This document shows positions 1 through 34,022 of a stretch of DNA of 34,243 nucleotides, one piece after another. The first letter of the stretch is position 1. Each line of letters starts with the position of its first letter. The notes under the pieces are model-generated. The model was given only the letters and a program-made list of their open reading frames with translations. It did not search any database and had not been told where the DNA came from. Origin of the DNA: Flavobacteriales bacterium (GTDB lineage: Bacteria; Bacteroidota; Bacteroidia; Flavobacteriales_C; GCA-002722245). Location of the stretch: NCBI GenBank assembly GCA_002722245.1, contig PBLA01000009.1, positions 1-34,243 on the forward strand, written 5' to 3'. The position numbers and the translations under genes were made by a program.

Positions 1-3000
1 AGTGGTTCAGGAGGAACATTGCCCTATTCATATTGGTGGGATGATCCATCAAACCAGACGAATGATACGGCGATAAATCTTTTTGGAAGAGCTCATCGCG
101 CAGCGGTTACTGATGTAAATGGATGTACAGATACGGTAACAATTGTAGTAGAGAGTCCCGATACCTTAAGACCAAATGATAGTTTGGTAAACATCTCATG
201 TAAATGGGCCTGTGATGGATACATCGGTGTTGCTTTAACAGGAGGAACGAGAGGAGGCGGATATACGCATTCATGGAATGTGGCATCTACGGATACTTTC
301 TTAATGGATTTATGCCCTGGTATATATGTGGATACAGTTACCGATGGGTTGGGTTGTATTGATACATTTACATTTGAGATCACAGAACCTGATACATTGA
401 TCGCTGTGATTACCGATACTACTAACGTGGTTTGTAATTATAGTAATAACGGTCAGGGAATTGTAACTCCAGTAGGAGGTACGCCTAATTACAGTTATGA
501 TTGGTACGATGTACCAGGAGGAGATACAGACTCTGTCGCCTCAGGAATTTTACCAGGAACGTATCATGTAGAGGTTACGGATGCGAATGGATGTATTGAT
601 ACAGCGGAGATTGAGATTAGTTCACCGCCCGCAATTGTAGTTGATTTGGATTCAATAGAGTCAACGTGTACAGGAATCTGTGATGGAGCAGCAATTGTGT
701 CTGTATCCGGAGGAACCGCGCCTTATGGTTATGATTGGTATGAGAATGGAAATTTAGATCACGATACGTTAAATAATATTTGTGCAGGGTTATATAATGT
801 AGAAATAACAGATTCGAATGGTTGTGTAGATACAGCTACCGTAAGCGTTACTCAACCGGTAACTGTTTCTGCCATGATTATTGACTCTAATTCAACAACT
901 TGTTATGGAGGTAATGATGGATGGGCGGTAATTAGCGGTTCGGGTGGAACATTGCCTTATACTTATTGGTGGGATGATCCTTCTAACCAAATTTCAGATA
1001 CAGCTACAGGATTATCATCAGGAACATATCGAGTAGCAGTGACGGATTTTAACGGTTGTTCAGATACTGTTTCGGTTGAGATCCGACAACCTCTACCTTG
1101 GAACCATTTGAAAGACACCTCAAATATTACCTGTTATGATTATTGTGATGGTCAAATAACAATTACACCAGCTGGAGGTATTGGACCTTACCAACATAGC
1201 TGGAATACAGGGTCATCATTACCTACATTAATTAATTTGTGTGCAGGAGAGTATATAGATACCATAACGGATTTTAATGGTTGTAGAGATACGGTTACTA
1301 CAATTATTGTGGAGCCTGATTCGTTGATGGCATTGCCTCAAATTATCAATCACGTGGTTTGTCATGGTGAAAACAATGCGAATGCAGTCTGTGAAGTGCA
1401 AGGTGGTACAGCTCCTTACTCGTTCACCTGGGGTGATCCTGTGAATGTAACAAACGATACACTATATAATGTTTCGGCTGGAACATATAGCGTTATTGTT
1501 ACAGATAGTTTGGGATGTATAGACTCCAATAATGTAGTTCTTATTGAACCAGTAAAATTGATCACAAGTATTACCGATACTGTGCATGCGAATTGTTTGT
1601 GTAATGGGGAGGCAACGGTAACGCCTACGGGAGGAGTTTTCCCATATAATTACTCATGGAGTGATATCGCAGGTTCATCAGATTCTACAGCAATAAATCT
1701 ATGTGCAGGTGCATATCAAGTTGAAATCAATGATGCTAACGGATGTTCAGATACTGCTTATGTTACTATAAGGGATACTGCTGACTTTAGTATCTCTATA
1801 ACAGATACTAATCAGGTTACCTGTAAAGGTTCTTGTGATGGTTCGGCAATTGTTACTCCAATGAACGGTACTGCGCCATATACCTATTTATGGAATGACC
1901 CTGGTGTTACAACCGATTCTGTTGTAACTGGTTTGTGTGCCGGCTTAGTGAGTGTAAGGGTTATCGATAATATTGGATGTGCAAGAATTGCAAATGTAAC
2001 GATTAGTGAACCCAATGAATTAGAAGTAAATCCTCAATTCATTAATCCATCTTGTTATGGTGATTCAAACGGATCAGCATGGGTTGAGGTAATTGGAGGA
2101 ACTTTACCAATTCAACATTCATGGAATACGTTTAGTGTAAATGACACTATTTATAATATTCCTGCAGGATTATATACCGATACCATTATCGATGCCAACG
2201 GCTGCTCAGACACCGTAACTATTTCAGTTATTGAGCCAGAACTCCTTGAATTGACAATTGGAGGAATGGATATAAATTGTTTCGGTTCTTCGGATGGAAA
2301 AGCATTTGCAGATGTTCAAGGTGGAATAGAACCCTACACGTATTCATGGAATGATCCTTCATCCTCTTCAAGTGATTCGATTTTTAACTTAAATCCTGGA
2401 AATTATATTCTTGAAGTAACGGATTTAGCGGGTTGTATTAAAATCGATAGTATTGACATTACAGAACCCGCTAAATTGCGATCAAGTATTTCGGATACTA
2501 CGCATGTGGAGTGTTTTTGTGATGGAATTGCGAGTGTGCTACCTATTGGAGGAACTCAGCCTTATACGTACGTTTGGAATGATCCATCGGATCAAACTGA
2601 TTCGATAGCAAATGGACTTTGTGCTGGTAATTATTCAGTTGTTGTGACAGATGCAAGAGGTTGTTTGGATACATCGTCGGTAAGCATTCGAGATACATCA
2701 GGCTTTGAAACAGCTATTGTTGATTCCTCTATGAATTCATGTTTTGCATTATGTGAGGGATCTGCTACTGCTAGAGCGGAAAACGGGGTTCAACCTTATA
2801 ATTTCTTATGGGATGATCAATCATCAACGAATGACTCCATGGTGAATAATTTATGTGCCGGTCGTTATACCGTTACTATTTCTGATGCAGAGGGATGTAC
2901 TCACATTGAAGATATAACCATATCAGAACCGGATGAGCTCATTGTTTCTTTGTCAAATTCAAGCGTGAGTTGTAATGGTAATAATGATGGTGTTATTTCT

Positions 3001-5714
3001 GCAATTATTAATGGAGGAACAACTCCTTATTCCTACAAGTGGAATGGGGATGGATCCTTGGCTGATTCAACCATCGATTCTTTGTCACCAGGACAATATA
3101 TTGTGGAGATTTTTGATGATAATGGATGTTTTGTTTCTGATACAGGAATAATATCAGAACCTGCAGAATTACTAGCGTTTATAACGCCTTACAGTAATGT
3201 ATCATGCTTTGGAGCAAATAATGCCACACTTACAGGATTGGGTACTGGAGGAGTGGCGCCATATTCGTACTCATGGAATTCAGGTGAATCAACTTCTAAT
3301 ATATCTAGTAAAGGCCCAGGGAATTACAGAGTGGTTATTACGGATTCGATAGGTTGTGCAGATGATACTTCAATAGTGATTACAGAACCAGTAGTGCTTA
3401 GTTCTTTAATAACAGATACCGTTCATATATCATGTGGAGGTGATGCAACAGGTTCTGCTACGGTAACTCCATCCGGAGGTACAGCTCCTTACACCTATCT
3501 ATGGAATGATCCAAGTGCACAAACTGATTCCATTGCAGATGGATTATCAGCTGGAAACTATCAAGTGGAGGTGACAGATGCTAATGGATGTTCCCATACA
3601 TCATTAATTACCATTACTGAACCTTTAGAATTTGATGTGTCAATTGCGGATAGTTCAAATGCAATTTGTGCAGGAGGAAGTGAAGGTTGGGCATTGGTTT
3701 CTTACACAGGAGGTACAGCACCATATACCATATTATGGAATGATGATGGAGATCAAGTAACGGATACAGCGATAAACCTGTCTGCAGGAACATATCAAGT
3801 TTTGGTTACAGATTTTGTGGGATGTATAGATTCGGCTTCTGTGACTATTGAACAGCCAGCTGATGCAATTACTGTATCATCTACGGTTACCCAAAATGTT
3901 TTATGTACAGGTTTTTGTATTGGAGAAGCGCACTTGGTTGTTGATGGCGGGGTGGAAGGATCTGGTTATACTTACCTTTGGGAGAGTGGTGAAACTGATT
4001 CGGCGGCTAATCAGCTTTGTCAAGGATATCAAACTTACACGGTAACTGATGGACTTGGATGTCAATATGTTGACTCAGTGCAGATCTTGGATTTGAATAA
4101 TTTTACGGCTGATTTCAGTCGATCATCAGTGAGTTGTTATGGTGACTGTGATGGCGCTATAACCGTTACTCCTGCTGGAGGTACTCCTCCCTATATTCAT
4201 TCTTGGAAGCATGGCGTAGCAGATACGGTTTTAAATTCGCTCTGTCCTGCAGTTTATATTGATACTATTTTTGATGCAAACGGTTGTTTCTTAATTGATA
4301 GTGTAAGAATTCTTGAGCCAGCTTTATTTGAGGTTTCAATTTCAGATACATTAAACCCAAGTTGTTTTGGTTATTGCGATGGTAGAACAGTTGCGGAAGG
4401 TATAGGAGGTACTGCTCCATATTCATTTACCTGGTACAACAGTTCAATCAATGAATTGAACGATACAGCGTTTAACCTTTGTGCAGCAACATATTATGTG
4501 CGAGGAGAGGACACAAACGGGTGTGCCTCAGAAGATACGATACTACTAACGGAACCAACTAAAATTAATACGACTTTAGATGTTTCAAGTGATGCGAAAT
4601 GTGCTAATTCTTGTGATGGCTCGGCAACTATTTTAGCGAATGGTGGTTCAGGAGCTTTGACTTTTTCATGGCTGGATGGAGATGCAAATGCGATTCGAAA
4701 TGATCTATGTCCTGGAGAAAACAAAGTGTATGTTTCAGATGAAAATTCATGTAGAGACAGCTTGTCATTTACAATAGGTTCTCCTTCTGAATTAGAGGCA
4801 ATAATTACAGATACCACTCATATTTTCTGTGATGGTACCACAAGCGGAGCAGCAGAAGTTGGTCAATCAGGAGGGGTAGGGCCATATACTTATAAGTGGT
4901 ATGAGTTAGGAAACCAAACGAGTAGTACTGTGACTAATTTGGATTCTGGAATATACTATGTGGAGGTTATGGATAATAATGGCTGCGTTGATACAGCTTC
5001 GGTCAAAATAAACATAGACGATGTGTTAACAGCAGATATTACTGTAACCAATACAAGTTGTTTTGGAAAATGTGATGGTAAAGTGGTAGCATCAATTTCA
5101 GGAGGGATAGGAAGTTACACGATTAACTGGGGAGATGGATCAACTATAGATTCGATAGAGAATGCATGTGCCGGAAATTATAACTTAACGGTTACTGATT
5201 TTGACGGGTGTACGGTGGCTACAAGCGGAACAATTCTAGAACCTCCGTTATTAACATCATCTATTATTGATAGTGCTAATTTGGATTGCTTTGGTGACTG
5301 TGATGGTTTTGCAACAGTATCTCCACAAGGCGGAACAAGCCCATACAGTTACCAGTGGAATGATGATGATTTACAAAATAGTCAAACGGCAACCGGTTTA
5401 TGTGGAGAATCATATGTGGTAGAGGTAACAGATAGTAAGGGATGTTTAAGCATTTCAATTGTTTCCTTAGAACAGCCATCAAATTTGGTTTCAACAATAA
5501 GTAGCATACCATCAAATTGTTCAAATTCTGCTGAAGGATCTGCTGATATAACTGTTTCAGGAGGAGTATCTCCTTACTCGTTCAGTTGGACAAATAATGA
5601 GATGTACAGTTCAAGTTTAGAAGATATATCTAATTTATGGATGGGTGATTACCAGGTAACGATTCTTGATTCTAATGGTTGTTCATTGGTTGACTCTACT
5701 ACAATTACTGCTGT
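1..5714 (+). repeat. 25-copy SprB-type protein repeat array
   Basis: Counting the terminal motif (VTDxNGC and variants) gives 25 repeats, the first truncated by the window edge. DNA identity between copies is generally low, so the array is old, but some copies are closer. Repeats 1 and 5 share SGSGGTLPY and WWDDPSNQ at an offset of 933 bases. Repeats 2, 6 and 10 share HSWN at offsets of 927 and 921. Two cysteine classes are visible: 13 repeats have four Cys and 11 have two, plus the partial first repeat. Confidence 0.9.
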
Positions 5715-6432
5715 TAATATGATGAACGCAAACGCAGGAGTTAACCTTGTTATTTGTGAAAATGACAGCGTTGAATTAACAGGAACAGGAGGAGATCTAT
5801 ACTCCTGGAGTGACGGAGGTACAACAGCGAATCATATTGTGTCACCTATTACGACAACAGAATATATCTTGACAGTATTTAAAAATGGATGTTCAGATAC
5901 AGATACCGTCCAAGTAACAGTGAATGCGTTACCCGTTATATCAGCATATGCTCAAGATGATTTAATTCTAGAAGGAACGAGTACCCAACTTGTGTCTTCT
6001 GGAGGTGGACCTGGAGGTCAATATGATTGGAATCCACCAATAGGGTTAGATGATCCAACTCTTGCAGGACCAACCGCTACACTTGAAAAACCCTCTACAT
6101 TTATTGTAACAGGAACGGATGCGAATGGATGTGTAGATACGGCATCAGTATTTATTGATGTTGCCAAAACAGTTGTTTTCCCTGAGGGAATTACGCCAAA
6201 CGGAGATGGTCTTAACGATAATTGGATTATACGATTGATCGATGAGTTCCCAAGAGCGAAAGTGATGATTTTCAATAGATGGGGACAAAAGGTATTTGAG
6301 AGTGTGGGATATTCTGACGCATGGGATGGAACGCAAAATGGAAGAGAATTACCTGTTGGTACTTATTATTATGTAATTGATTTAGGACCAGGTCACGACC
6401 AATTTACAGGGCCAATAACACTTATGCGATAA
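1..6432 (+). CDS. Giant SprB-repeat adhesin, T9SS type B cargo (5' end missing)
   Basis: The frame is open from the first base, so the true start lies upstream and at least 2143 codons are visible. The protein consists of 25 tandem SprB-type repeats (about 76 residues each; each has an early SC-x-G Cys, GGT-PY-x-x-W, an LxAGxY turn and a VTDxNGC end). Two PKD/Ig-like segments follow (about 5715-6170). The end (about 6170-6429) is a gliding-motility-associated C-terminal domain with ITPNGDGLNDNW, FNRWGQKVFES, W-D-G-T and LPVGTYYYVIDL. In this family that domain is the T9SS type B sorting signal, and proteins of the SprB class are cell-surface adhesins used in gliding or attachment. The repeats are rich in Asp, Thr and Cys, fitting an exported, disulfide-bonded filament. 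A PorP/SprF-like gene follows after 17 bases, a common pairing. Family assignment is firm; the role (gliding, attachment or prey contact) is inference. Confidence 0.95.
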   Translation, partial: SGSGGTLPYSYWWDDPSNQTNDTAINLFGRAHRAAVTDVNGCTDTVTIVVESPDTLRPNDSLVNISCKWACDGYIGVALTGGTRGGGYTHSWNVASTDTFLMDLCPGIYVDTVTDGLGCIDTFTFEITEPDTLIAVITDTTNVVCNYSNNGQGIVTPVGGTPNYSYDWYDVPGGDTDSVASGILPGTYHVEVTDANGCIDTAEIEISSPPAIVVDLDSIESTCTGICDGAAIVSVSGGTAPYGYDWYENGNLDHDTLNNICAGLYNVEITDSNGCVDTATVSVTQPVTVSAMIIDSNSTTCYGGNDGWAVISGSGGTLPYTYWWDDPSNQISDTATGLSSGTYRVAVTDFNGCSDTVSVEIRQPLPWNHLKDTSNITCYDYCDGQITITPAGGIGPYQHSWNTGSSLPTLINLCAGEYIDTITDFNGCRDTVTTIIVEPDSLMALPQIINHVVCHGENNANAVCEVQGGTAPYSFTWGDPVNVTNDTLYNVSAGTYSVIVTDSLGCIDSNNVVLIEPVKLITSITDTVHANCLCNGEATVTPTGGVFPYNYSWSDIAGSSDSTAINLCAGAYQVEINDANGCSDTAYVTIRDTADFSISITDTNQVTCKGSCDGSAIVTPMNGTAPYTYLWNDPGVTTDSVVTGLCAGLVSVRVIDNIGCARIANVTISEPNELEVNPQFINPSCYGDSNGSAWVEVIGGTLPIQHSWNTFSVNDTIYNIPAGLYTDTIIDANGCSDTVTISVIEPELLELTIGGMDINCFGSSDGKAFADVQGGIEPYTYSWNDPSSSSSDSIFNLNPGNYILEVTDLAGCIKIDSIDITEPAKLRSSISDTTHVECFCDGIASVLPIGGTQPYTYVWNDPSDQTDSIANGLCAGNYSVVVTDARGCLDTSSVSIRDTSGFETAIVDSSMNSCFALCEGSATARAENGVQPYNFLWDDQSSTNDSMVNNLCAGRYTVTISDAEGCTHIEDITISEPDELIVSLSNSSVSCNGNNDGVISAIINGGTTPYSYKWNGDGSLADSTIDSLSPGQYIVEIFDDNGCFVSDTGIISEPAELLAFITPYSNVSCFGANNATLTGLGTGGVAPYSYSWNSGESTSNISSKGPGNYRVVITDSIGCADDTSIVITEPVVLSSLITDTVHISCGGDATGSATVTPSGGTAPYTYLWNDPSAQTDSIADGLSAGNYQVEVTDANGCSHTSLITITEPLEFDVSIADSSNAICAGGSEGWALVSYTGGTAPYTILWNDDGDQVTDTAINLSAGTYQVLVTDFVGCIDSASVTIEQPADAITVSSTVTQNVLCTGFCIGEAHLVVDGGVEGSGYTYLWESGETDSAANQLCQGYQTYTVTDGLGCQYVDSVQILDLNNFTADFSRSSVSCYGDCDGAITVTPAGGTPPYIHSWKHGVADTVLNSLCPAVYIDTIFDANGCFLIDSVRILEPALFEVSISDTLNPSCFGYCDGRTVAEGIGGTAPYSFTWYNSSINELNDTAFNLCAATYYVRGEDTNGCASEDTILLTEPTKINTTLDVSSDAKCANSCDGSATILANGGSGALTFSWLDGDANAIRNDLCPGENKVYVSDENSCRDSLSFTIGSPSELEAIITDTTHIFCDGTTSGAAEVGQSGGVGPYTYKWYELGNQTSSTVTNLDSGIYYVEVMDNNGCVDTASVKINIDDVLTADITVTNTSCFGKCDGKVVASISGGIGSYTINWGDGSTIDSIENACAGNYNLTVTDFDGCTVATSGTILEPPLLTSSIIDSANLDCFGDCDGFATVSPQGGTSPYSYQWNDDDLQNSQTATGLCGESYVVEVTDSKGCLSISIVSLEQPSNLVSTISSIPSNCSNSAEGSADITVSGGVSPYSFSWTNNEMYSSSLEDISNLWMGDYQVTILDSNGCSLVDSTTITAVNMMNANAGVNLVICENDSVELTGTGGDLYSWSDGGTTANHIVSPITTTEYILTVFKNGCSDTDTVQVTVNALPVISAYAQDDLILEGTSTQLVSSGGGPGGQYDWNPPIGLDDPTLAGPTATLEKPSTFIVTGTDANGCVDTASVFIDVAKTVVFPEGITPNGDGLNDNWIIRLIDEFPRAKVMIFNRWGQKVFESVGYSDAWDGTQNGRELPVGTYYYVIDLGPGHDQFTGPITLMR

Positions 6433-6449
6433 GTTGAACAATTAATTAA

Positions 6450-7775
6450 TTGAAATTGCTGAAGACAAAAAAACATAGTAAACTCATTGTAATGATTCTG
6501 CTGGTAGCAAGCGTTTCACGTGCGCAACAGTTGCCAATCTTTACTCAATATTTATTCAACAAGTATGTATTTAATCCTGCTTTTACTGGTACTGAGGATA
6601 ATTTCTCAGCCACGGCAAATTATCGCTATCAATGGCAAGGAGTAACCGATGCGCCAAGAACTTATGTGCTTTCAGTTCATGGACCACACAAATACAAAAG
6701 CTTTGGATTAGGAGGTGCTCTGTATACTGATGTAACAGGTCCTACATCAAAAACAGGAATGTATTTATCCTATGCGTATAATTTTAAAGCGACAGACTAT
6801 ACAAAGATATCATTCGGTTTAAGTGGAGGAATGATGCAGTATAGGGTTGATGGTACTAAAATTACCTTAGCTGAACCCGGTGATATTACTTTAGCAAATA
6901 CATTGATGAATAAAATTATTCCTGATTTTGGGTTTGGAGGTGTATGGTATAGTGATGATTTCTTTCTCGGAATATCTGTACCTCAATTTATTCAAACCAA
7001 ATTAGACTTTACTGATGACAGCAAACAAACGCTTAGTCAATTAACTTCTCACCTGTATTTAAATGGAGGATACAATTTTATAATTAACGATGATTTCAGT
7101 ATTGAACCCTCTACAATGATTAGAATGTCTTCGGGAGTAATTCCTCAATTTGATTTTGCCACCAAATTGATTTTTCAAACCAATTATTATTTAGGAGCTA
7201 TGGCAAGAACTCAGGATGCCTTTGCATTGATTACTGGATACATGACTCCAAATGGGAAGTTTAATTTTGGTTATGCGTATGATGTTACAGTTGGACGTTT
7301 AGGCGCATACAGCAATGGATCGCACGAATTAATGATTAAAGCAACCTTTGGTGACATTAAGCAAAAAAGACCTGCGAGAAAAAGAAAGAGGAGAGGTTCA
7401 AAAATGGAACGATTAGAGTGGAAGCTTAAGAATTTAGAGAATCAAGAAAACGGTGGTTCTATTGAAGAGGAAAGTAATGAAACTCAGGATGGAGACATGG
7501 ATTACTATGACGATACTAAAAAGGATCAAACCACAGAGACAAATACAGAAGAATCCGATGATAGCAAAACAATAGGTGAAAGAATAGAAGAGGTGGAGCG
7601 AGAAGACAGGGCATTAAGAGCGAAAGTAAGAGCGCTAAGAGATGATGCTGAATCTCAAGGGTATGGAAGTCCAAATGATACGGGTTACCCAAGGCGACAA
7701 GAATACCTTGAGGCCCTTGAAAAAATTAAGGCAATTTATCGAAAGAAAAAAGAACTTGATGGTATGTTAGATTAA
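6450..7775 (+). CDS. PorP/SprF-family T9SS outer-membrane protein with charged C-terminal tail
   Basis: Residues 1-25 form a signal peptide (basic start, hydrophobic core, cleavage likely after SRA). The following segment QQLPIFTQYLFNKYVFNPAF is the signature opening of the PorP/SprF family, outer-membrane beta-barrels that pair with type B T9SS adhesins. The barrel ends near residue 302 (KATFGDI). A further ~139 residues follow: a basic stretch (KRPARKRKRRG), an acidic Glu/Asp-rich region and a predicted coiled coil near the C-terminus. Family members are usually about 300 residues long, so this tail is an addition. The TTG start at 6450 is chosen because the first in-frame ATG (6492) would remove the basic n-region of the signal peptide. 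The gene begins 17 bases after the adhesin stop, so the two are probably co-transcribed. Confidence 0.9.
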   Translation: MKLLKTKKHSKLIVMILLVASVSRAQQLPIFTQYLFNKYVFNPAFTGTEDNFSATANYRYQWQGVTDAPRTYVLSVHGPHKYKSFGLGGALYTDVTGPTSKTGMYLSYAYNFKATDYTKISFGLSGGMMQYRVDGTKITLAEPGDITLANTLMNKIIPDFGFGGVWYSDDFFLGISVPQFIQTKLDFTDDSKQTLSQLTSHLYLNGGYNFIINDDFSIEPSTMIRMSSGVIPQFDFATKLIFQTNYYLGAMARTQDAFALITGYMTPNGKFNFGYAYDVTVGRLGAYSNGSHELMIKATFGDIKQKRPARKRKRRGSKMERLEWKLKNLENQENGGSIEEESNETQDGDMDYYDDTKKDQTTETNTEESDDSKTIGERIEEVEREDRALRAKVRALRDDAESQGYGSPNDTGYPRRQEYLEALEKIKAIYRKKKELDGMLD

Positions 7776-15050: not shown

Positions 15051-15058
15051 CAAAGGTA
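15051..15058 (-). promoter_or_regulatory. -7 promoter box TACCTTTG, nearly at the start codon
   Basis: Exact TAnnTTTG on the minus strand, only six bases upstream of the ATG at 15044, so the transcript would be leaderless or nearly so. It is the same 8-mer as at 7839-7846. Confidence 0.5.
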
Positions 15059-15308
15059 CATGTTTATGAATAAAAATTTAAGAGGCGTGAATCTTATTAG
15101 AGAATCTTTTATTATTAGTAATGAGGATTAATTTAACTAATTTGTGCACTGTTAAACACCCACAAAAATCTGTTTATAAGATAATTAAAGTAATTATTAA
15201 AAATTTAATTTAGAGATAATTTTCACGTCCAGGTTTTGTCTAAACAGTAGATTTTGATTTTTAAAATTAGATAATAATATTATGTTGAAACCCTTAAACG
15301 TTTAAAAT

Positions 15309-16997
15309 ATGTACCGAATTATTCTTTTGCTTTTATTAGGAAATATAGTCTCATCAATATCAATAGTGGCGCAACATGATTATCCTAAAGCCTTAAATCT
15401 CTCAACTTATTTTTTGGGCGCTCAAAGAAGCGGAGATAATAATTCATGGATTCATGAAGCCTCTCATACAGAAGATGGAAGCGCATTAAGTCCTCAAGTT
15501 GATCTTACAGGAGGTTGGCATGATTGCGGTGACCACATTAAATTTAGTTTTACCAATAATTGGGCTGCAACAATGTATTTGTTAGGCTACCATTTTTTTC
15601 CTTCAGGTTTTCTGGATAATTATTCGAGCGCATTTTCCGCGCCTCCATCAAACGGAATTCCTGATATATTAGATGAGGTTAAAATTCAAACAGACTTCAT
15701 TATTAAATCATTCAATAATGGTAATGTTGTTCAGCAAGTTGGTAGTGGTGATTATGATCATTCTGGAAGTTTTGCTGAGCCTGCAACACAGTCTACTTTA
15801 CCAACGAACAAAGGTGGTGATCCTAGGCCGATTTACATAAATTCGAATTGTGTTAATATCATTGGTGGAGCAGCATCTGCTCTAGCTTTAATGTATATGA
15901 ATTACTCGGACTATGATCAAACATATGCGAATGAATGTTTAGCATCTGCAAAGGAATTTTATGCACTTGGTAAGCAAAAATCTGGAAGTTGCGGAAGTGT
16001 AGATTGTTCTTCTGGAGGAAATCCTTGTTATAATTTAAGTTCAACAAGTTCTGATGATGAAATGGCTATGGCCGCTGCATGCCTTTATGAATCAACAGGT
16101 GAAATTTCTTACCGAACAGATGCCGAAAATTATTTTAATAGTAATTTATGGGATGGACAGGTTCATTATTATGGAGGCATGGATTTGATTGCTGCCGCTG
16201 TATTATATAGAACAACCGCTGATATTAAATATCTTGATTTTCTAAAAAAGCATTTCACTTTTCATAGTAAGGCCCAATATAATGCTATGGGGTTTTACAA
16301 TTATCAGTATAGTTCCGGTTGGGGAAATCTTCAATATACAGGGAATGAGGCTTTTATTGCTTCATTAATACATTCTTTAGACGGCAGAATAAACAGTACG
16401 TATTACGACTTTGCAAAAAGTAATACAGATTTCATTTTAGGAAGTCACGATGAATTAGGAAATATTCCAGCCAACTATTCTTTTTTAATCGGATACGATG
16501 AATTAGGAGGTGGATATCCATTGCGCCCTCATCATAAGGCCGCATTTGGAAGTACAAAAACAGATTGGTCGCTGTTTACCTTGGAAAGTAATTCACCAGG
16601 TTCGGTGGCTTATGCTTTTGAATTAAAAGGAGCAGTAGTAGGAGGACCAGATGACTCAGGGAATTATACGGATAAGATCGATGTTTTTCAAAATTCGGAA
16701 GTTTGTACTTATTATAACGCTGGATTTACAGGCGCTTTGGCTTATATAAATATGATAGAGAACAACTTGATTGCCCAAGTAAAAGAATTATCAGGACAAC
16801 CAGAACTTGTCCAGAATGGAAGATTTATGACAATTAAGCAAGGTGGTCAAATGCAGGTTGTTGATGCTGTTGGAAAGTTAGTGATTGACCAAAAAGTAAA
16901 TAAAAATCAAACGATTAATTTGTCAGATTTGAAAGTTGATGTTTACTTCGTTAAATTAAACGGATTAAGTCACGCAACAAGAATCGTTATCAAATGA
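15309..16997 (+). CDS. Secreted glycoside hydrolase family 9 cellulase with T9SS type A-like tail
   Basis: A signal peptide (residues 1-21, ending in AQ) leads directly into a GH9 (alpha/alpha)6-barrel. Catalytic motifs are in place: GGWHDCGDHIKF (D72 and D75, the nucleophile-water Asp pair; DCGD replaces the usual DAGD), GGYPLRPHHKAA (H408/H409) and NSEVCTYYNAGFTGALAY with the general acid at E464. The last ~70 residues (QMQVVDAVGKLVIDQK to DLKVDVYFVKLNG and a basic end) resemble the T9SS type A sorting domain. No N-terminal Ig domain or cellulose-binding module is present. GH9 enzymes are mostly endo-beta-1,4-glucanases. The 255-base upstream gap is AT-rich and holds only weak signals: TTAAACGTTTAA at 15294-15305 and a 6-bp inverted repeat at 15141-15166. 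The stop overlaps the AraC gene start. Confidence 0.93.
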   Translation: MYRIILLLLLGNIVSSISIVAQHDYPKALNLSTYFLGAQRSGDNNSWIHEASHTEDGSALSPQVDLTGGWHDCGDHIKFSFTNNWAATMYLLGYHFFPSGFLDNYSSAFSAPPSNGIPDILDEVKIQTDFIIKSFNNGNVVQQVGSGDYDHSGSFAEPATQSTLPTNKGGDPRPIYINSNCVNIIGGAASALALMYMNYSDYDQTYANECLASAKEFYALGKQKSGSCGSVDCSSGGNPCYNLSSTSSDDEMAMAAACLYESTGEISYRTDAENYFNSNLWDGQVHYYGGMDLIAAAVLYRTTADIKYLDFLKKHFTFHSKAQYNAMGFYNYQYSSGWGNLQYTGNEAFIASLIHSLDGRINSTYYDFAKSNTDFILGSHDELGNIPANYSFLIGYDELGGGYPLRPHHKAAFGSTKTDWSLFTLESNSPGSVAYAFELKGAVVGGPDDSGNYTDKIDVFQNSEVCTYYNAGFTGALAYINMIENNLIAQVKELSGQPELVQNGRFMTIKQGGQMQVVDAVGKLVIDQKVNKNQTINLSDLKVDVYFVKLNGLSHATRIVIK

Positions 16998-18022
16998 TGA
17001 ATCTTCAAACCCTTAAAATATTCGGGATTATCCAAATGTTGTTTAGTGCAGCTATTTTTATCGTTCTTGGACAGAAGGAGGTTCTCAATTTCACAAAGGA
17101 TAATGGCTTTCGAATTGGTGTTTATGATGACATATCAGTGAATGGAAATTCAACTATTAAAGAATTGTCTGAGGGAAATTTTGAGTTTTCCGTTGGCGAT
17201 AAATACCAGTACGGTTTCGCAGGAGTGTATCTTCAAAAAGAAGATAAAACACTTTTCGAATTAGGTAAAGGAAAAGTTATTGATTTAAGGATCTCTTCAA
17301 ATACCGATGTGAACGTTCATTTAAGTTTTGAAAAACTTCTGCCTGATGGTCATTCAACAAGACCGTTTCAAGCAAAAGGCACGTTACTATATACTAGTGA
17401 AATCAGTTCTCATCAAATAGATTTAGAGGAATTTAAAACGCCAGAATGGTGGTTTAAAGACCATATAAAAAGGAGTAAAACAGGTTTGGTATCGGACAGT
17501 ATAGTGAGTTTTAATATTGAGTTCAAAAAGTCAGGAGAAAAGCTTCAGTCTGGAGTAGTGGGAATAGATAATGTATCCGTTTTAACAAAAGAAAATTTAC
17601 TACAACTACCTCTTGGAGGGGGATTATTTTTTATTGGATTAATCTTAATGTTCATACCTCAAAAAAAAGAACTTCGAGGAAGTAAAGAAGAAAAAGGGAA
17701 GAATGAAAACCCAATAGTTTATTATGTAAACTCAAATCTTTACAATCGCTCATTAACCATACACAGTGTTTCAGAACATTTCAAACTTTCTACGGATTAT
17801 ATCAACGAGAGAATGAAGACTGAAACGGGGTTAGCATATAAAGATTACGTTAATCAAAAACGAGTTGATAAAGCAAAAGAGTTGTTAAAGTCCTCTGAAG
17901 ACAAAGCGTTCGAAATAGCTCAATTATGTGGCTTCAATAGCTCAGCTGGATTCAGTCAGACATTCAAAGCTGTTACTGGATTTACACCTAATGAGTATCG
18001 AAATTCTAAATCTGATCAATAG
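16994..18022 (+). CDS. Membrane-anchored AraC-family regulator with extracytoplasmic beta-sandwich domain
   Basis: 342 residues in a one-component transmembrane layout. TM1 spans ~9-26, an extracytoplasmic region ~27-202, TM2 ~203-222 followed by basic residues (PQKKELRGSK, positive-inside), and a cytoplasmic AraC-type DNA-binding domain ~245-337. In the last, YINERMKTETGLAYKDYVNQ and IAQLCGFNSSAGFSQTFKAV mark the two helix-turn-helix units. The external region is beta-rich and ends GVVGIDNVSVL, a closing strand often seen in galactose-binding-like or carbohydrate-binding modules; YQYGFAGVYLQ and EFKTPEWWF also fit that fold. The ATG overlaps the GH9 stop (ATGA), so the two are translationally coupled. 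A glycan-sensing activator of the cellulase is the simplest reading. The ligand and targets are unknown. Confidence 0.88.
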   Translation: MMNLQTLKIFGIIQMLFSAAIFIVLGQKEVLNFTKDNGFRIGVYDDISVNGNSTIKELSEGNFEFSVGDKYQYGFAGVYLQKEDKTLFELGKGKVIDLRISSNTDVNVHLSFEKLLPDGHSTRPFQAKGTLLYTSEISSHQIDLEEFKTPEWWFKDHIKRSKTGLVSDSIVSFNIEFKKSGEKLQSGVVGIDNVSVLTKENLLQLPLGGGLFFIGLILMFIPQKKELRGSKEEKGKNENPIVYYVNSNLYNRSLTIHSVSEHFKLSTDYINERMKTETGLAYKDYVNQKRVDKAKELLKSSEDKAFEIAQLCGFNSSAGFSQTFKAVTGFTPNEYRNSKSDQ

Positions 18023-20668: not shown

Positions 20669-20691
20669 CCTTCTTATTGATTTTGGGTGAG

Positions 20692-23115
20692 ATGAGAATT
20701 GCACTAACGCTATTCATGATTTTTTTAAAAACGTTATTATGGGCTTACCCTGATTCGTGCAGTTACTCTATTTCTGGGAAAATTTTAGATATATCAACAA
20801 AAGAGCCAATACCTTATGTGTCGGTGATGACTCGAGATGGAAGTAGGGGGACAATTGCCAATGATCAAGGCGAGTTTTTTTTAGATAGTTTATGTTCAAA
20901 ATCCAATACACTCTTTATTTCTTGTTACGGTTATTGTGACTCCATTTGTGAACATCATCATCAACATGGAAAAGTACCTCATATTTATTTGACACAAAAA
21001 GTTATAGATGTTGGAGAGGTCACGATTAAAGCGCCGATGAACAAAAAAGAGGGGATAGAATCGATTGCTCAAACTACGATAGATAAAGACGAAATAAACA
21101 GTGATCCAACTCAAACACTTGCGGGAGTAGTTGAAGATGAGCAAGGAGTTTCGCTTCTTTCTGCGGGAACCAATGTTCAAATGCCGGTGATACATGGATT
21201 GTATGGGAATCGAATTTTGATTTTAAATAATGGGTTGAAGCATGGTTTTCAAAATTGGGGAAAAGATCATGCCCCTGAAATTGATATTGCTAATGCAAAT
21301 TCAATAACCATTGTAAAAGGGGCTGCAGGTGTTCAATTTGGGCCTGAAGCACTAGGGGGTGCCATTATTGTAGAGCCTAATCCACTATATTTGAAGGAGC
21401 CTTTTTATGCTTTGGTAAGAACGGGATATCAAACCAATGGTCGAGGGTATAATTCAGGCTTTGAGTGTGGCCAGGGAAAGAAACATTGGAGTTACTTTAT
21501 TAATGGGAATTACACAAAAGTTGGAGACAGACACGCCCCAAATTATTCTCTTACGAATTCAGGGAAGGAGGAATATTCATTTGGATCAGGAGTACATTTT
21601 CGAACCGAGAAATTAGGGGTGAAAGCATATTATAGTTTGATTAATCAGAATTTAGGTCTTTTAAGAGCCTCTTATCCTCATAGCTCACGGGCAATTCGAC
21701 AAGCCTTTGAAGCTGAACAACCCGATTCATCCTATATCTTACCATTTTCATATGCCATCAATGAACCCAATCAGCTTATACAACATCATTTGGCAAAAGG
21801 AGAGGTGAAATGGAATTATTCAAATCATGGGAATTTTAAGTTAATCATGGGTAAACAATTGAATAGCAGAAAAGAATATGATGTTAGAAGAAATTCTCAT
21901 AAACCAATTATTGATTTGGACTTAATAACCAATGATATTCAGTTGGAATGGAAACATCCTGATGTTTTTGAGCTTGATGGAGTGATAGGAGTACAATATT
22001 TTTATCAGGATAATGACAACAATCCTGGAACAGGGACTACACCTTTTATTCCAAATTATAATATTGATCGATACAGTGCTTTTGTGGTAGAAAGTAAAAG
22101 GCTTGGAAATGATATGATTGAAGCGGGTATCCGAGTTGATTTAGAAGAGGATAATGTTCGGGGTAGAGAAACAAATCAGGATTTATTTAGGGATGAATTT
22201 TCCTTCAGTAACATCACATCATCTATTGGCTTTGTGAAAAATTTTAGCAAAGCAAATTCATTCAGAATGAATTTAGGAAACGCTTGGAGAACTCCCAATA
22301 TGGCAGAACTATTTAGTTTCGGTCAGCATGGTTTTAAAACGACCTATGGGTTGCTTAGGCATTATTTTAATGATGAAGAGAAAATTAAAACAAATCGCGT
22401 AATTCCCTTTAAAGAAAGTGAAGTAGAAGCAGAGAAAGGATGGAAATATGTGAATGAATTAAGAATTAATACAAAACGACATGGACATACGTTATCAGCT
22501 TATTCTCATTATATTTTGAACTATATCTATGAGCGTCCATATGCTGTTATAGGTACTTTTAGAGGTCCTCAACCCGTATTTATCATTCGTCAAACAGATG
22601 CGCTTTTTCTGGGATGTGATTATGATTGGAAAGCGGAATGGAGTAAACGAGTTGATGGAACATTTGGAGTGAGTTATTTATGGTCACGCAACCTTTCAGA
22701 AAATGAGGGTCTTATTAATCAGCCGCCAGTAACAATGAGTTATAAATTAAATTGGGAACATAAACCAAAAGGCAAAATGACTTCTTCTAAAATCATCTTG
22801 AAACCTTTCTATCGGTTTGAGCAATTTCAAGCTCCTCGAACATTAACGCCCACACAATTAATTGATGGCGATGAGGTTATTACTTTAAATTCTGAAATTT
22901 TTGATTTTAAAGCTGCTCCTAAAGGATATTTTATGTTCAATATTGCCTGGAAATTTGAATGGAGACTAATACAAGGTCAAGTTGCGGTGAATAATTTATT
23001 CAATTCGAGTTACCGAGACTATTTAAATGAAATGAGGTATTTCGCAGATGCTCCTGGAAGAAATTTCTTATTTACACTTACCTATAAATTCAAAAACAAT
23101 AAATCTAAATACTAA
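20692..23115 (+). CDS. TonB-dependent outer-membrane receptor, probable metal (zinc) uptake
   Basis: 807 residues from the ATG at 20692. A signal peptide (MRIALTLFMIFLKTLLWA) precedes a carboxypeptidase-D-regulatory-like domain (CSYSISGKILDISTKEPIPY), which contains a His cluster (CEHHHQHGK). The plug follows (GVSLLSAGTNVQMPVIHGLY, then VKGAAGVQFGPEALGGAI) and a 22-strand-type beta-barrel ends in APGRNFLFTLTYKF. The layout is that of active importers powered by TonB. A zinc role is inferred from three neighbours: the palindrome over the promoter, the His/Asp-rich lipoprotein 16 bases downstream, and a Fur-family gene. Siderophore or another substrate cannot be excluded from the protein alone. 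Confidence 0.93.
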   Translation: MRIALTLFMIFLKTLLWAYPDSCSYSISGKILDISTKEPIPYVSVMTRDGSRGTIANDQGEFFLDSLCSKSNTLFISCYGYCDSICEHHHQHGKVPHIYLTQKVIDVGEVTIKAPMNKKEGIESIAQTTIDKDEINSDPTQTLAGVVEDEQGVSLLSAGTNVQMPVIHGLYGNRILILNNGLKHGFQNWGKDHAPEIDIANANSITIVKGAAGVQFGPEALGGAIIVEPNPLYLKEPFYALVRTGYQTNGRGYNSGFECGQGKKHWSYFINGNYTKVGDRHAPNYSLTNSGKEEYSFGSGVHFRTEKLGVKAYYSLINQNLGLLRASYPHSSRAIRQAFEAEQPDSSYILPFSYAINEPNQLIQHHLAKGEVKWNYSNHGNFKLIMGKQLNSRKEYDVRRNSHKPIIDLDLITNDIQLEWKHPDVFELDGVIGVQYFYQDNDNNPGTGTTPFIPNYNIDRYSAFVVESKRLGNDMIEAGIRVDLEEDNVRGRETNQDLFRDEFSFSNITSSIGFVKNFSKANSFRMNLGNAWRTPNMAELFSFGQHGFKTTYGLLRHYFNDEEKIKTNRVIPFKESEVEAEKGWKYVNELRINTKRHGHTLSAYSHYILNYIYERPYAVIGTFRGPQPVFIIRQTDALFLGCDYDWKAEWSKRVDGTFGVSYLWSRNLSENEGLINQPPVTMSYKLNWEHKPKGKMTSSKIILKPFYRFEQFQAPRTLTPTQLIDGDEVITLNSEIFDFKAAPKGYFMFNIAWKFEWRLIQGQVAVNNLFNSSYRDYLNEMRYFADAPGRNFLFTLTYKFKNNKSKY

Positions 23116-24416: not shown

Positions 24417-25124
24417 ATGAGAGTATGCATTGTGGTTCCATGTTACAATGAAGGTCATCGGTTAAACGAGTCGGCGTTCCTCACATTTTTAAACGAAAAC
24501 CCTCAAATATCTTTTTGTTTTGTAAATGATGGAAGTTCGGATGATACAATTGACAAATTGCTGAGATTAAAATCGAAAAACGAGCGAGTTTTAGTCCTGG
24601 ATAATCCTCACAATAAAGGCAAAGCTGAAACAGTTCGGAATGGGATTAATCATGTGGTAAAAGAGTTTGATATTGTTGGTTTTTTTGATGCAGATTTAGC
24701 CACTCCACTTAATGAGCTAAGCCAATTAATTCATATAATTGGACAAAACCAATATGATGCGGTATTTGCCTCTAGAATATTACGACTAGGATCAGTCATT
24801 CAACGAAGATTTAAACGACATTTATTTGGACGGTTATTTGCCACCATTATAGGGACATTATTTGGCATAAAAGCATACGATACGCAGTGTGGTGCAAAAG
24901 TTTTTCGTCGTGAAATAGCCGAGAAAATATTTGCTGAACCTTTTGTTTCTAAATGGATTTTTGATGTTGAGTTGTTAATTAGGATGGATTATCGTCAAGA
25001 TCACCACAACCTTTTTGAATATCCTCTAAGAAAATGGGTAGATGTAGCTGGATCTAAAATAACCTTTAAGGACACTTTAAGGATTCCGCTAGAAATTTTA
25101 AAGTTATATAAGGCTTACAGGTGA
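24417..25124 (+). CDS. Family 2 glycosyltransferase (polyprenyl/dolichyl-phosphate glucosyltransferase-like)
   Basis: 235 residues, GT-A fold. VCIVVPCYNEG at the N-terminus, CFVNDGSSDDT, NKGKAETVRNG, the metal/nucleotide-binding FFDADLATP (DAD 91-93), and KAYDTQCGAKVFRRE with KWIFDVELLIRM in the acceptor region, a pattern seen in Alg5/GtrB-like enzymes that load a sugar on a lipid phosphate. No strong membrane helices beyond a weak hydrophobic patch. The ATG at 24417 (first residues MRVCIVVP) is preferred over an upstream in-frame TTG that would overlap the Fur-family gene. It overlaps the convergent membrane protein by ten bases. Confidence 0.9.
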   Translation: MRVCIVVPCYNEGHRLNESAFLTFLNENPQISFCFVNDGSSDDTIDKLLRLKSKNERVLVLDNPHNKGKAETVRNGINHVVKEFDIVGFFDADLATPLNELSQLIHIIGQNQYDAVFASRILRLGSVIQRRFKRHLFGRLFATIIGTLFGIKAYDTQCGAKVFRREIAEKIFAEPFVSKWIFDVELLIRMDYRQDHHNLFEYPLRKWVDVAGSKITFKDTLRIPLEILKLYKAYR

Positions 25125-27424
25125 AGTCCATTCGGTAATTTGCCTACGGGATAATTGTTGTAATAGAGTACACTATCCTCAATACTATATATTTCGGAAT
25201 ACTTTTTCTTAACCATCACTTGGTCAACATAAAGAGGGGGGTTTTCAAAAATATGCCCTTTTAAAAAATATTTTAGATGACTGTTTTTTATTCTTTGCTG
25301 AAAGACAAACGACACATAGGTCCAATCACCAATATGATCATATGAATTTTTGGTATCAGTAATTAAAGTCCAATCCGATTGTCCATCTCGTTTTTCTTCA
25401 ATAACCCCCATAATATTATAGGTTTCCATACTTTTAGTGTGATACCAATAATTAATTTCATAATCTATATTTGTTTCAAATAGATAATTTGGATCATTTA
25501 AAAGCATCGTGTAATCAAGATGTTTTCCCTCAAGACAATGAGATCCTGAAAAAGATTGATTCGTACTAAAGGAATCATTTTCGAAGTTAGAGTAAAAAAT
25601 CAAATCACTTGAATCATTAAGGTATAGGTTGCCTATAGTAATGAATTGATCTTTTTTCTTTAAAAAGTTGTTGAGCTTAGCTTCGTTTTCAAGTTGAAGA
25701 AGGTCTTCAAAACGACACGAATAAAGTTCAAAATGAGCGGTTTCAAAAAGTTTTGTAGATTTTCTAAGGAGTTGTTGTTCTTGTGGTTTTATCCAAACTT
25801 TTTCTTTTAGAATTATCGCTTTTTTCTCTTGAACGTTTTCTAATAATAGAGATGGTTTTAAGTGCATGCCGAAAATTTCGCTGATTGCTGAACCATAAAT
25901 ATTTGGCGTTCGCGTCATGCTTGAGTTAACCAAAGGTTTTCCTGCATGAATTGCTAAGAATTTAGAAAATTGAAATGTTAATGATGTTGACTCATGACCA
26001 AAACGATCACCTTTGTAGTAAAACGGAAGTGCTATAATAGCATCATAATCAAAAGATTTAGCTTTTGTAATGAGTTTGTTGAGTTCAGTGTTCTGCTCAG
26101 GATGCGCAAATAAGTTATGTTGTTCAATAGCTTTTTCACTCACCATTTTCTGTATGGGAATAGCACTAAATCCATATAGAAAAATCATCACACTAAGCAT
26201 TAGAAAAGCATGTATATTTTTCCTCGAAATGGAGTAATGTTTGTATATTTTGAATAGATAGATCACTGAATACACATTAATTAACAAAAAGAAAACCCAG
26301 GTAAATCGCGCTAAAGCTCTAATTTGTGCAAGAAAGGGGAATTTGGGCAATAATTGATAGATCCCAAGTTTATATGGAACTCCAAACGCAACAATAAGTG
26401 TAAGAAAAGCAATAATCCAAATACGAATATATCGTGTTTTAAAGAGCGATTTAATTGCTTTTTTTTGAATTTTGAATAGGATTCGAATAGAAATAAGGAT
26501 AAGAACAATCAATGCCGGAAAACCGATAAAAGACCAACTTTCCCATGTATGTTCTTGAACATTAAATAAGTTATTTGTATACTGAACTACATCTCCAACA
26601 TTTGGTAAAAACACATCTGATAACTTGGCATTATAGGTATATAATTCGTAAAAGTTTACAGGCCTTTCCTCTCCGTTACCCATTATTTTTAAATAGGAAA
26701 AGAAGACAATAACTCCAGTGAATGATTGAACCGAGAAATGAATTCCTCTGCGAATAATATTTTTTCTGTCCTTAAGAAATGATGTTAATCCTAGGCTAAA
26801 CAGTAAAAACATAGAGATAATTCCAAGATAAGGGTGGATGAAAAATAGAATTAAATTGAAAAGAGCAATTAAAATGGAACTTTTCAAACGATAACGTTCA
26901 CCATGTTTTATGAAAAAATACCACGTCCCAGGAAGAAAAAAAGCATAGGGTAAACTTGGATGTGCAACAATACGATACGTTTGTGGCCATAATATGGCAA
27001 TTAAAAAAGCAAAAATTGCGGAAAACCACCATGTTACGCCGTGATGCAGAAGGATCTTATATAGGAAGAAGGAACACAATACAATTGAAAACAAAATAAA
27101 AAGGTTAATAAATCCCGCAGAGTAAGTATAAATTCCTGGGAAAATAGTGTCAAGTGCCTTTATTGAGTTGGCCACAATGGGTTGACCATCTGTAAAATTA
27201 TATAGATCACCGAACGGGTAATTGAACCCATTATAATGCGAAAAAGAGGTATCATGTTTCGCATGAAAATAAACAGAGTAATAGGTCATTAGTCCATCTC
27301 CATCTCCCGTAAACAAGTACTTATTTGGTTGAAAAATAACCTTTCCGTAAAAAACAAAAAGAAATCCCAAAGGTAAAAGTATGGATAGGTAGAGCCCCTT
27401 GGATTTATTCATAGGATTTAACAT
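25115..27424 (-). CDS. GT-C-like polytopic membrane protein with C-terminal jelly-roll-like domain
   Basis: 769 residues. The N-terminal two thirds have roughly eleven membrane helices. The first external loop holds GDGDG (40-44) and YNGFNYPFG, an acidic-loop arrangement seen in GT-C glycosyltransferases that use lipid-linked sugars. HPSLPYAFFLPGTWYFF follows. The last ~200 residues are soluble and beta-rich (NFENDSFS ... DWTYVSFVFQQ ... PPLYVDQVMVKK), resembling a carbohydrate-binding-type beta-sandwich. No named family is certain; a YfhO-like or GT-C transferase is the best guess. A TATTTTTG box lies 57 bases upstream (27482-27489). Start is at 27424; Met5 (27412) is an alternative. Confidence 0.75.
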   Translation of the reverse strand: MLNPMNKSKGLYLSILLPLGFLFVFYGKVIFQPNKYLFTGDGDGLMTYYSVYFHAKHDTSFSHYNGFNYPFGDLYNFTDGQPIVANSIKALDTIFPGIYTYSAGFINLFILFSIVLCSFFLYKILLHHGVTWWFSAIFAFLIAILWPQTYRIVAHPSLPYAFFLPGTWYFFIKHGERYRLKSSILIALFNLILFFIHPYLGIISMFLLFSLGLTSFLKDRKNIIRRGIHFSVQSFTGVIVFFSYLKIMGNGEERPVNFYELYTYNAKLSDVFLPNVGDVVQYTNNLFNVQEHTWESWSFIGFPALIVLILISIRILFKIQKKAIKSLFKTRYIRIWIIAFLTLIVAFGVPYKLGIYQLLPKFPFLAQIRALARFTWVFFLLINVYSVIYLFKIYKHYSISRKNIHAFLMLSVMIFLYGFSAIPIQKMVSEKAIEQHNLFAHPEQNTELNKLITKAKSFDYDAIIALPFYYKGDRFGHESTSLTFQFSKFLAIHAGKPLVNSSMTRTPNIYGSAISEIFGMHLKPSLLLENVQEKKAIILKEKVWIKPQEQQLLRKSTKLFETAHFELYSCRFEDLLQLENEAKLNNFLKKKDQFITIGNLYLNDSSDLIFYSNFENDSFSTNQSFSGSHCLEGKHLDYTMLLNDPNYLFETNIDYEINYWYHTKSMETYNIMGVIEEKRDGQSDWTLITDTKNSYDHIGDWTYVSFVFQQRIKNSHLKYFLKGHIFENPPLYVDQVMVKKKYSEIYSIEDSVLYYNNYPVGKLPNGLHL

Positions 27425-28369: not shown

Positions 28370-30667
28370 ATGCGCATTTTACTATTAATTGGTGTTGTTT
28401 TTTTCCTTTTTTCAGGCTGTTCTGAAAGTAGTAATAAATCTGCTTTACATTTTTCAGTTTCAAAAAATAGGAAAACATTTTTAATGGATTTTGAATCGAA
28501 CCCAGATTCGCTCATTTGGCAATTGAATAAAGATCAAATTCAAGGCCAGGATAATCAGTTTTTACATTTTGGAAAAGAGGACTTATTTGGAGGCAATTTT
28601 GAATTTCATGTACCCGATGGTTTTCAAAATTCTAGCGCCGTTGTTAAAGTGACCTTTAAATACAGAAATCAGTCTAATAAACAGGGTTATTACGTGTTCA
28701 GCGCAAAGGATTCTTTGGAGCAGTTTTATTGGCGAAGTTCGTCTTTTGAAGGAAAGCAAAAAGACTGGATGATTTTTTCTGATTCAATTATAATTCCTGT
28801 GTCAAAAATAGAAAACACAGATCTTAAGTTTTATGGATTCAACCCCGACAAGGCAGTGTTTGATATCGACTCATTAACAATAACAATTCAGAATTATACT
28901 TTTCCGAGTTACCTAACAGATGTGAAACAACATTATCATTTATTTCCAAAAGTAAACTTAAATAACCCTCTTTTTGAAAGCGTAGCGTTAGCATCATTTG
29001 TAAATAATCAATTTGTTACCGCAGATTTTGAAAAAGAGAATGATAGCACCCTCATTGGAGGGAATGATTACTTTGATATTCATGTGCTTCAATTAAACAA
29101 TCAAGAACATTGTTTATTTGAGAGTTCTACTAAATTTAAAGAGCCCACTAAAGTAAATCGACTGGCATTAATTTATAAATATAAAGGGGACGTTTCAGAA
29201 GTTTATCGCAATAACCGGATGGCCTCTGAATTTCTAGGCAATGAAGCTTGGCTTGCAAAACAAGGGTTTAAAATTACTCAAGGCGTCGAAAACTGGATGT
29301 GCTATGGTAGCAATAAGGTGAGTTCTTTTCAACTACTTAAAAAGGAAAAACTATTGGTAGTGAATATTGATTGGTTACAAGACCATCCCCTTTTTCATTT
29401 TCCAGAACTTGATTCATTGATTAATGTAAAAAAAGATGTTTCCGCTTATCGGTATACCAAGTATAGTCCAAAATTGGAACATTCTTTTAAAATATTCAAA
29501 ACCAGTAAGGTTAAATCGGCTCCAAGAATCCTCCCTACTCAGCATGGGTTTCAATCTGCATTCCTTTGGACTGAACATGCCGATTTCACAGATATTCGGT
29601 TACATAGGGTTACGTATTTTGGTAACGAAGATGCAACGGGACTTTCTAAAGCGAATGCAGGCTTTGCTTACCATGAAATTCCAGTAACAAAAAGTGTATT
29701 CTATACTGTTCATGATACGCTTAAAAACGGAGATTACAAAAGCACTAAAATCAATACAGAATCAGCGTCGTTAATGAAAACAGATGGGTTTCGATTTTTT
29801 TTAGATACACTTCATTCATTAGGGAATGAGATATGTTTGCATACTCCCGACTTTTTCACCACCAATGAACGAACCATGGATAGAGCATTGGATTATATAA
29901 CGAAGCGTTATGGATCTCATACTTGGATTGATCATGGGTATAATAATGGTCATTCTGATAATCGAGAAAATGTGATGTGTGATGGGTTAAATTCATATTC
30001 TAAAAATCTTTGGGAGAAATATGCGATTAAATATTTTTGGAATGGATACTTTGAAGACACATTAATACAAAAGCCGTTTACCTATAGTGAAAGTATTACA
30101 GTACCCTATCACGGTTTCGAAGATCAAGTACCCTACCCACTTTATTGGGAGACTAAAAGACAGGGTAGTGGGTTTTATTCATGGCGGACAAATACCGTTT
30201 TCTTTCCAAAACATGGGGGGACTTGGAGTTATTTTTTCTCCGATCAGAAATTGAATGATTTTACTACGAATTATGGCGTTGAATTTAGTCATGTATATCC
30301 TGCCCATACAGGACATATGGGATTTTGGAAATATGATACGGATAGTAATTTTATCATTGAGCCTGCTTTTGACGAAACCTTGCGGAAAATGGCCTCCCTT
30401 AGAGATCTAGGAATACTACAAATCCCCACTGTAACTGAATTTATGGATCATCAATTAGCCATTGAAAAAGTCACATATATATTTAAAGATGATCAGATAA
30501 TCGTGAAGAATAACGGAGAAAATATTAAAGGATTAACCTTTGCGATTAAGCGAAAAGGTCTCCCAAGTCATTTTAAGGAACAATTTCAGCATCATCGAGT
30601 TAATGGAGAAGATTTAATTTTTTGGATGGATTTAAATAAAAATCAGGAACGAATTATTCAATTTTAA
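28370..30667 (+). CDS. Lipoprotein with jelly-roll-like and possible deacetylase-like domains, function unknown
   Basis: 765 residues. A lipoprotein signal ends in LFSGC (Cys17). Residues ~40-175 look like a beta-sandwich (MDFESNPDSLIW start, FDIDSLTITI end). From ~390 to ~690 is an alpha/beta region with conserved-looking His/Asp patches: AFLWTEHADFTDIRLHRVTY (~396), GNEICLHTPDFFTTNE (~485), TWIDHGYNNGHSDN (~518) and VYPAHTGHMGFW (~641). Their order recalls the NodB/polysaccharide-deacetylase superfamily, but the canonical TFDDG is absent, so this is a tentative call. A short beta-rich tail ends the protein. The -7-like TACTTTAG is at 28337-28344. Its neighbours suggest work on an envelope or exported glycan. 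Confidence 0.7.
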   Translation: MRILLLIGVVFFLFSGCSESSNKSALHFSVSKNRKTFLMDFESNPDSLIWQLNKDQIQGQDNQFLHFGKEDLFGGNFEFHVPDGFQNSSAVVKVTFKYRNQSNKQGYYVFSAKDSLEQFYWRSSSFEGKQKDWMIFSDSIIIPVSKIENTDLKFYGFNPDKAVFDIDSLTITIQNYTFPSYLTDVKQHYHLFPKVNLNNPLFESVALASFVNNQFVTADFEKENDSTLIGGNDYFDIHVLQLNNQEHCLFESSTKFKEPTKVNRLALIYKYKGDVSEVYRNNRMASEFLGNEAWLAKQGFKITQGVENWMCYGSNKVSSFQLLKKEKLLVVNIDWLQDHPLFHFPELDSLINVKKDVSAYRYTKYSPKLEHSFKIFKTSKVKSAPRILPTQHGFQSAFLWTEHADFTDIRLHRVTYFGNEDATGLSKANAGFAYHEIPVTKSVFYTVHDTLKNGDYKSTKINTESASLMKTDGFRFFLDTLHSLGNEICLHTPDFFTTNERTMDRALDYITKRYGSHTWIDHGYNNGHSDNRENVMCDGLNSYSKNLWEKYAIKYFWNGYFEDTLIQKPFTYSESITVPYHGFEDQVPYPLYWETKRQGSGFYSWRTNTVFFPKHGGTWSYFFSDQKLNDFTTNYGVEFSHVYPAHTGHMGFWKYDTDSNFIIEPAFDETLRKMASLRDLGILQIPTVTEFMDHQLAIEKVTYIFKDDQIIVKNNGENIKGLTFAIKRKGLPSHFKEQFQHHRVNGEDLIFWMDLNKNQERIIQF

Positions 30668-33968: not shown

Positions 33969-34022
33969 TGGTTGTAAGGTATCGATAAAAACCATCGACA
34001 AAGCAAACAAATAAATTTAATA

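Follow-up and report, generated by a model that had tools for sequence, protein, structure and literature searches.

A gene for a membrane-bound AraC-type regulator overlaps the end of a GH9 cellulase gene in the window, as we call the whole 34,243-nt stretch of DNA analyzed here. Its product is a divergent member of a small, previously unnamed protein family, whose members combine two membrane helices with a C-terminal AraC domain, commonly lie next to genes for polysaccharide-active proteins and are accompanied by direct repeats of 21- or 22-bp period. We consider it probable that these proteins are one-component transmembrane activators in which a periplasmic CIA30/CBM11-like domain switches on the adjacent enzyme gene directly.

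A GH9 cellulase gene and a membrane AraC regulator in one apparent operon

Both open reading frames lie where the preliminary description of this DNA had placed them (Table 1), and their 4-bp overlap is evident from the junction sequence, ...AAATGATG..., in which the ATG of the regulator at 16994 runs into the TGA stop of the GH9 gene (16995-16997). The two genes apparently form one operon, with the regulator as the second gene.

Table 1. Features of the GH9-regulator locus (window coordinates).
Feature	Position	Strand	Basis
Intergenic region 5′ of GH9, presumed promoter, without a significant 20-22-bp direct repeat	15054..15308	.	Repeat scan
GH9 cellulase, 562 aa, predicted secreted	15309..16997	+	Pfam PF00759, Cel9M relative
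T9SS type A C-terminal sorting tail of GH9	16830..16994	+	TIGR04183
ATGA overlap, GH9 stop/regulator start	16994..16997	+	Junction sequence
Membrane AraC regulator, 342 aa	16994..18022	+	ORF, HTH match, hydropathy, family profile
Transmembrane helix 1, residues 7-25	17012..17068	+	Hydropathy peak, position conserved in family
Predicted extracytoplasmic CIA30/CBM11-like sensor domain, residues 26-203; GNS, FAG and PEWW motifs conserved	17069..17602	+	Family profiles
Transmembrane helix 2, residues 203-221, then basic stretch	17600..17656	+	Hydropathy
AraC-type double helix-turn-helix DNA-binding domain, residues 260-337	17771..18004	+	PF12833, PF00165

The product of the first gene matches the Glyco_hydro_9 model of Pfam (E 1.5e-80). 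Its closest solved relative is Cel9M (E 3e-46), with which the HDxGDH and EV..YNAG motifs, containing the catalytic Asp and Glu, can be aligned. Since the protein ends in a T9SS sorting tail (25.3 bits against a cut-off of 23), we predict that it is exported.

In the regulator, the HTH region scores 61.7 bits against HTH_18 (PF12833; cut-off, 33.6) and 45.2 bits against PF00165. This is its sole Pfam match, no kinase, ATPase or receiver domain being present, and membrane helices and DNA-binding domain share one chain without a phosphorelay. The preliminary description was right about the AraC domain and an extracytoplasmic domain of ∼175 residues, but counted one membrane helix where there are two. 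Between the helices lie ∼175 to 178 residues, which presumably face the periplasm; helix 1 might in addition act as a signal anchor that is not cleaved.

We identified no SusC/SusD pair within the window, in line with the earlier remark that none is adjacent. The sole TonB receptor of the window (20677-23115) begins 2.7 kb past the regulator, behind a helicase gene on the opposite strand, and is followed by an uncharacterized ORF and a Fur-family gene. Elsewhere, positions 19-7775 encode a 2137-aa SprB-repeat adhesin with a CHU_C T9SS tail, followed by a PorP/SprF gene, likely a gliding or adhesion pair. The T9SS, PorP/SprF, SprB and CHU_C genes together suggest placement in the Bacteroidota. 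Three long ORFs at 25115-27424 (-), 28370-30667 (+) and 33066-34010 (-) lack a Pfam match at E 0.001.

A small family with a common two-helix layout

In a first search, whole genomes were queried with just the outer domain, which brought up relatives in a sister genus. Of 395 genomes of the class that were then searched with a profile, 8 contained members, 23 in all if that of the window is counted. A later search brought the total to 27, with four strong additions from other taxonomic families. The TM-domain-TM-AraC layout is not confined to the window's genome: the sister genus has it, and so do other families of the class. The two-helix layout is common to all 22 relatives first examined (for L050, we took the longer start, which includes helix 1), and all intact members combine TM-domain-TM-AraC with the conserved motifs, including a P-x-W-W-like family signature with an invariant Trp.

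The window protein was recovered at E 3.1e-18 by a profile built without it. In the tree, it forms a lone long branch, with at most 23% identity to any other member. Among the sampled genus-mates, no counterpart was found beside a GH9 gene, and a search of genome contigs for related loci returned generic AraC matches only.

The window's genome contains a second family copy of 239 aa (L056:7242-7958; G000:C17, minus strand), located directly upstream of a GH18 gene, that consists of a membrane helix, the sensor domain and another membrane helix, followed by a stop in place of the AraC domain. Its closest relative (L055:6634-7767; G003) has kept the AraC domain and lacks an enzyme neighbor. At another locus (L054:6657-8970; G005:C44), two family members stand in tandem beside T9SS cargo of unknown function.

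Most family members adjoin polysaccharide-active genes

The preliminary description had suggested looking for homologues next to other glycoside hydrolases. We find the next credible gene to be polysaccharide-active in 18 of the 27 members, a count that includes orthologues and hence nonindependent cases; the classes are GH5, GH9, GH18, GH28, GH43, GH127, CE2 and sulfatase. Such neighbors are represented in eight of ten clades, and the substrate class of the neighboring enzymes differs between clades. Five orthologues are flanked by a CE2 esterase and, on their opposite side, by a GDSL esterase, some with GH9, GH16 or GH18 nearby. Besides GH9 in the window, next genes of other members encode CE2, GH18-CBM6, GH18, GH28/GH127, GH5 mannanase (two cases) or sulfatase. 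Viewed from the enzyme side, 6 of the 10 CE2_N genes in five sister-genus genomes immediately adjoin a family member.

The idea of adjacency came from the first 23 members, so that the four found later serve as a held-out set. All four have an enzyme as next gene: GH5 plus GH5 in G875, CE2-CE4 at each of two members in G623, and GH43 plus GH127 in G649. With an enzyme background assumed, not measured, at 10 to 20%, this outcome has a p value of 9e-5 to 1.6e-3. The nine members lacking an enzyme as next gene comprise four with lectin/propeller neighbors or at contig ends and five others. Some members lie beside lectin-domain or uncharacterized T9SS proteins, and many neighbors are T9SS cargo.

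Direct repeats of 21- or 22-bp period beside family members

Upstream alignment of orthologous regulators, used as a phylogenetic footprint, revealed a conserved direct repeat in each of two groups. The CE2-linked regulators have GCAAAGT repeated at a 21-bp period, and those linked to lectin/GH18 have GTCCGGT repeated at a period of 22 bp. When five whole genomes were searched for exact matches to GCAAAGT-N14-GCAAAGT and GTCCGGY-N15-GTCCGGY, every match adjoined a family member; the one exception was an identical site on a second contig of that same genome. Three successive GCAAAGT copies occur in the promoter of a further CE2 gene.

A motif-free scan of 41 intergenic segments adjacent to members, covering spacings of 12 to 45 bp, gave significant repeats at 21 bp in 10 segments (four of them orthologues of one another) and at 22 bp in 4, every other spacing occurring in 0 to 3. 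The repeats lie mostly upstream of the enzyme gene, the regulator gene or both, including sites upstream of GH127, GH5, GH43, CE2 and mannanase genes, and several have a TTTTG(C/T)AAAG-like core in common. We predict from these patterns that the repeats are AraC-type operators; their periods, about two helix turns, are as expected if two AraC domains occupy a direct repeat. Upstream of the window GH9, the scan found no significant direct repeat; the link between this regulator and this enzyme therefore rests on operon structure and analogy.

The outer domain as a putative divergent relative of CIA30 and CBM11

The suggestion that the outer domain resembles a carbohydrate-binding module holds at the level of the family, through CIA30 and CBM11, whereas the window domain alone matched no Pfam model. 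Six of 23 members, the window protein not among them, match CIA30 weakly (best E, 0.001). In hhalign, the family scored 39.2 against 21 CIA30 domains, compared with a maximum of 17.7 for 60 column shuffles, 16.5 for the reversed alignment and 12 to 14 for control alignments of CE2_N, GDSL and HTH. The window sequence scored 14.6 by itself, and we therefore base the CIA30 assignment on the family. From CIA30, profile searching leads on to the CBM11 of endoglucanase H (1v0a, 2lro; E 0.002).

Direct comparison of the family with CBM11-like rows, which were few and mixed, gave no signal, and the outer-domain profile produced one chance-level match only against solved structures. AlphaFold2, run on a single outer-domain sequence, returned an unusable model (pLDDT 32). 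We read the outer domain as a putative divergent member of the CIA30/CBM11 beta-sandwich superfamily rather than as CBM11 itself, which makes a carbohydrate-binding fold plausible for the family and leaves the preliminary idea standing. Since CIA30-like domains act in protein assembly too, the fold is no proof of sugar binding.

Elsewhere in the phylum, a histidine-kinase-like protein with PAS domains (L090; G454:C6; open frame of 1811 aa) contains a CBM11/CIA30-like segment between its N-terminal membrane helices, which suggests repeated recruitment of this fold for sensing.

A proposed mechanism and its alternatives

In the scheme that we favor as probable, the secreted enzyme would cut a polysaccharide, and small soluble products would reach the periplasm, where one of them would be bound by the CIA30/CBM11-like domain between the two membrane helices. 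Binding would alter helix packing in a regulator dimer, with its two helix pairs, and thereby seat two cytoplasmic AraC domains together on a direct repeat of 21- or 22-bp period, from which they would turn on the neighboring enzyme gene. With a promoter common to enzyme and regulator, as appears to be the case in the window, a positive feedback loop would result. Our computations show the architecture, the family, the adjacency to polysaccharide-active genes and the periodic repeats; we infer the periplasmic orientation, the ligand, the signaling through a dimer, an activating instead of a repressing role, and control of the window GH9. Taken further, the family may constitute a distinct class of polysaccharide sensors, with a CBM-related domain between two helices, direct AraC output, a clade-by-clade match to enzymes and separate 21- or 22-bp operators for each clade; this wider claim we make tentatively. 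If it is true, glycans would be sensed by a further route beside hybrid two-component systems, ECF/anti-sigma pairs and SusR, one that can operate without SusC/SusD.

The family might be as described and the window copy nonetheless not control GH9, acting instead on its own gene or on distant genes, or drifting from use. Its long branch, the lack of an operator upstream of GH9 and a second copy in the same genome that has lost its DNA-binding half (L056) would fit such a history; yet the ATGA overlap places the two genes in one apparent operon, the HTH is intact and well over its cut-off, and the sensor motifs are conserved, and we judge this reading rather unlikely. What the outer domain binds could also be different: a partner protein, or the state of the membrane or of secretion, in which case the enzyme neighborhood would reflect control by a signal of secretion or surface attachment. 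That the closest named family is an assembly factor, CIA30, that many neighbors are T9SS cargo and that some members lie beside lectin-domain or uncharacterized T9SS proteins speaks for this option. It is made improbable by the clade-dependent substrate class of the neighbors, as substrate-specific sensors would predict, and by the relation of CIA30 itself to CBM11.

Chance adjacency deserves mention because the enzymes are frequent, with 4 to 16 GH18 and 1 to 7 GH9 genes in each sister-genus genome. We considered and disfavor it as very improbable: enzyme neighbors occur at 18 of 27 members and at all of the held-out ones (p 0.0016 even at the assumed 20% background), and the operator repeats are found beside members and almost nowhere else.

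Relation to known regulators

Neighborhoods and repeats across the family support the notion that a single membrane protein with AraC output is coupled to glycan enzymes; its novelty as a design had been overstated, in view of SusR and of regulators published in 2008. The latter, from Saccharophagus degradans 2-40, are membrane-bound AraC proteins such as Sde_0324, beside the cellulase Sde_0325, for which extracellular polysaccharide sensing was hypothesized (PMC2386152). By their published description, they share with our family an AraC-type HTH, two predicted membrane regions, a cellulase next door and lineage-specific expansion; in contrast to our family, they belong to the Gammaproteobacteria. 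SusR of Bacteroides thetaiotaomicron, an inner-membrane-spanning sensor-regulator of periplasmic maltose (PMC11216935, PMC10936149), is likewise a single membrane-spanning activator of glycan genes with a periplasmic sugar sensor, here compared by description; unlike the present regulator, it works with SusC/SusD.

Hybrid two-component systems resemble the family in their periplasmic sensor, AraC output and nearby CAZymes, but differ from the window regulator by having kinase, ATPase and receiver domains. Membrane sensing with AraC output is also found in the YesS-type regulators of Bacillus, which control pectin genes. ToxR, CadC and TcpP, the classical transmembrane regulators, are likewise single chains made up of a sensor, a membrane helix and a DNA-binding domain, the last being an N-terminal winged helix. 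A survey whose main text does not mention AraC reports that transmembrane transcription regulators are common, with an enrichment in Bacteroidota (PMC10269533). In the literature searched, with most subscription papers outside it, we found no description of the sensor-domain family or its operators. While the general idea is already known from Saccharophagus, SusR and transmembrane regulators, the present analysis adds a variant with a defined sensor-domain family and predicted operators.

For enzyme genes outside classical SusC/SusD loci, whose control is for the most part little understood, family and operators offer a sensor-operator pair that can be put to the test. The differences between clades in neighbor enzyme and operator would provide a route to study how sugar-binding domains adapt to new substrates, and the proteins may supply compact single-protein parts for glycan-responsive switches.

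In one regulator clade, the divergent gene encodes a propeller protein of ∼940 aa (L040:4167-6983, L041:4441-7251, L042:4198-6999, L045:8456-11272). Pfam matches on the L040 copy comprise Reg_prop, Y_Y_Y and a LuxR-type HTH, without a kinase, so that it resembles a hybrid two-component sensor reduced to one-component form. Between the regulator and the propeller gene, all four loci contain a conserved block, AAGAAAAGTAGATTGAATCCCC, that is separate from the GTCCGGT repeats and is followed by a possible hairpin.
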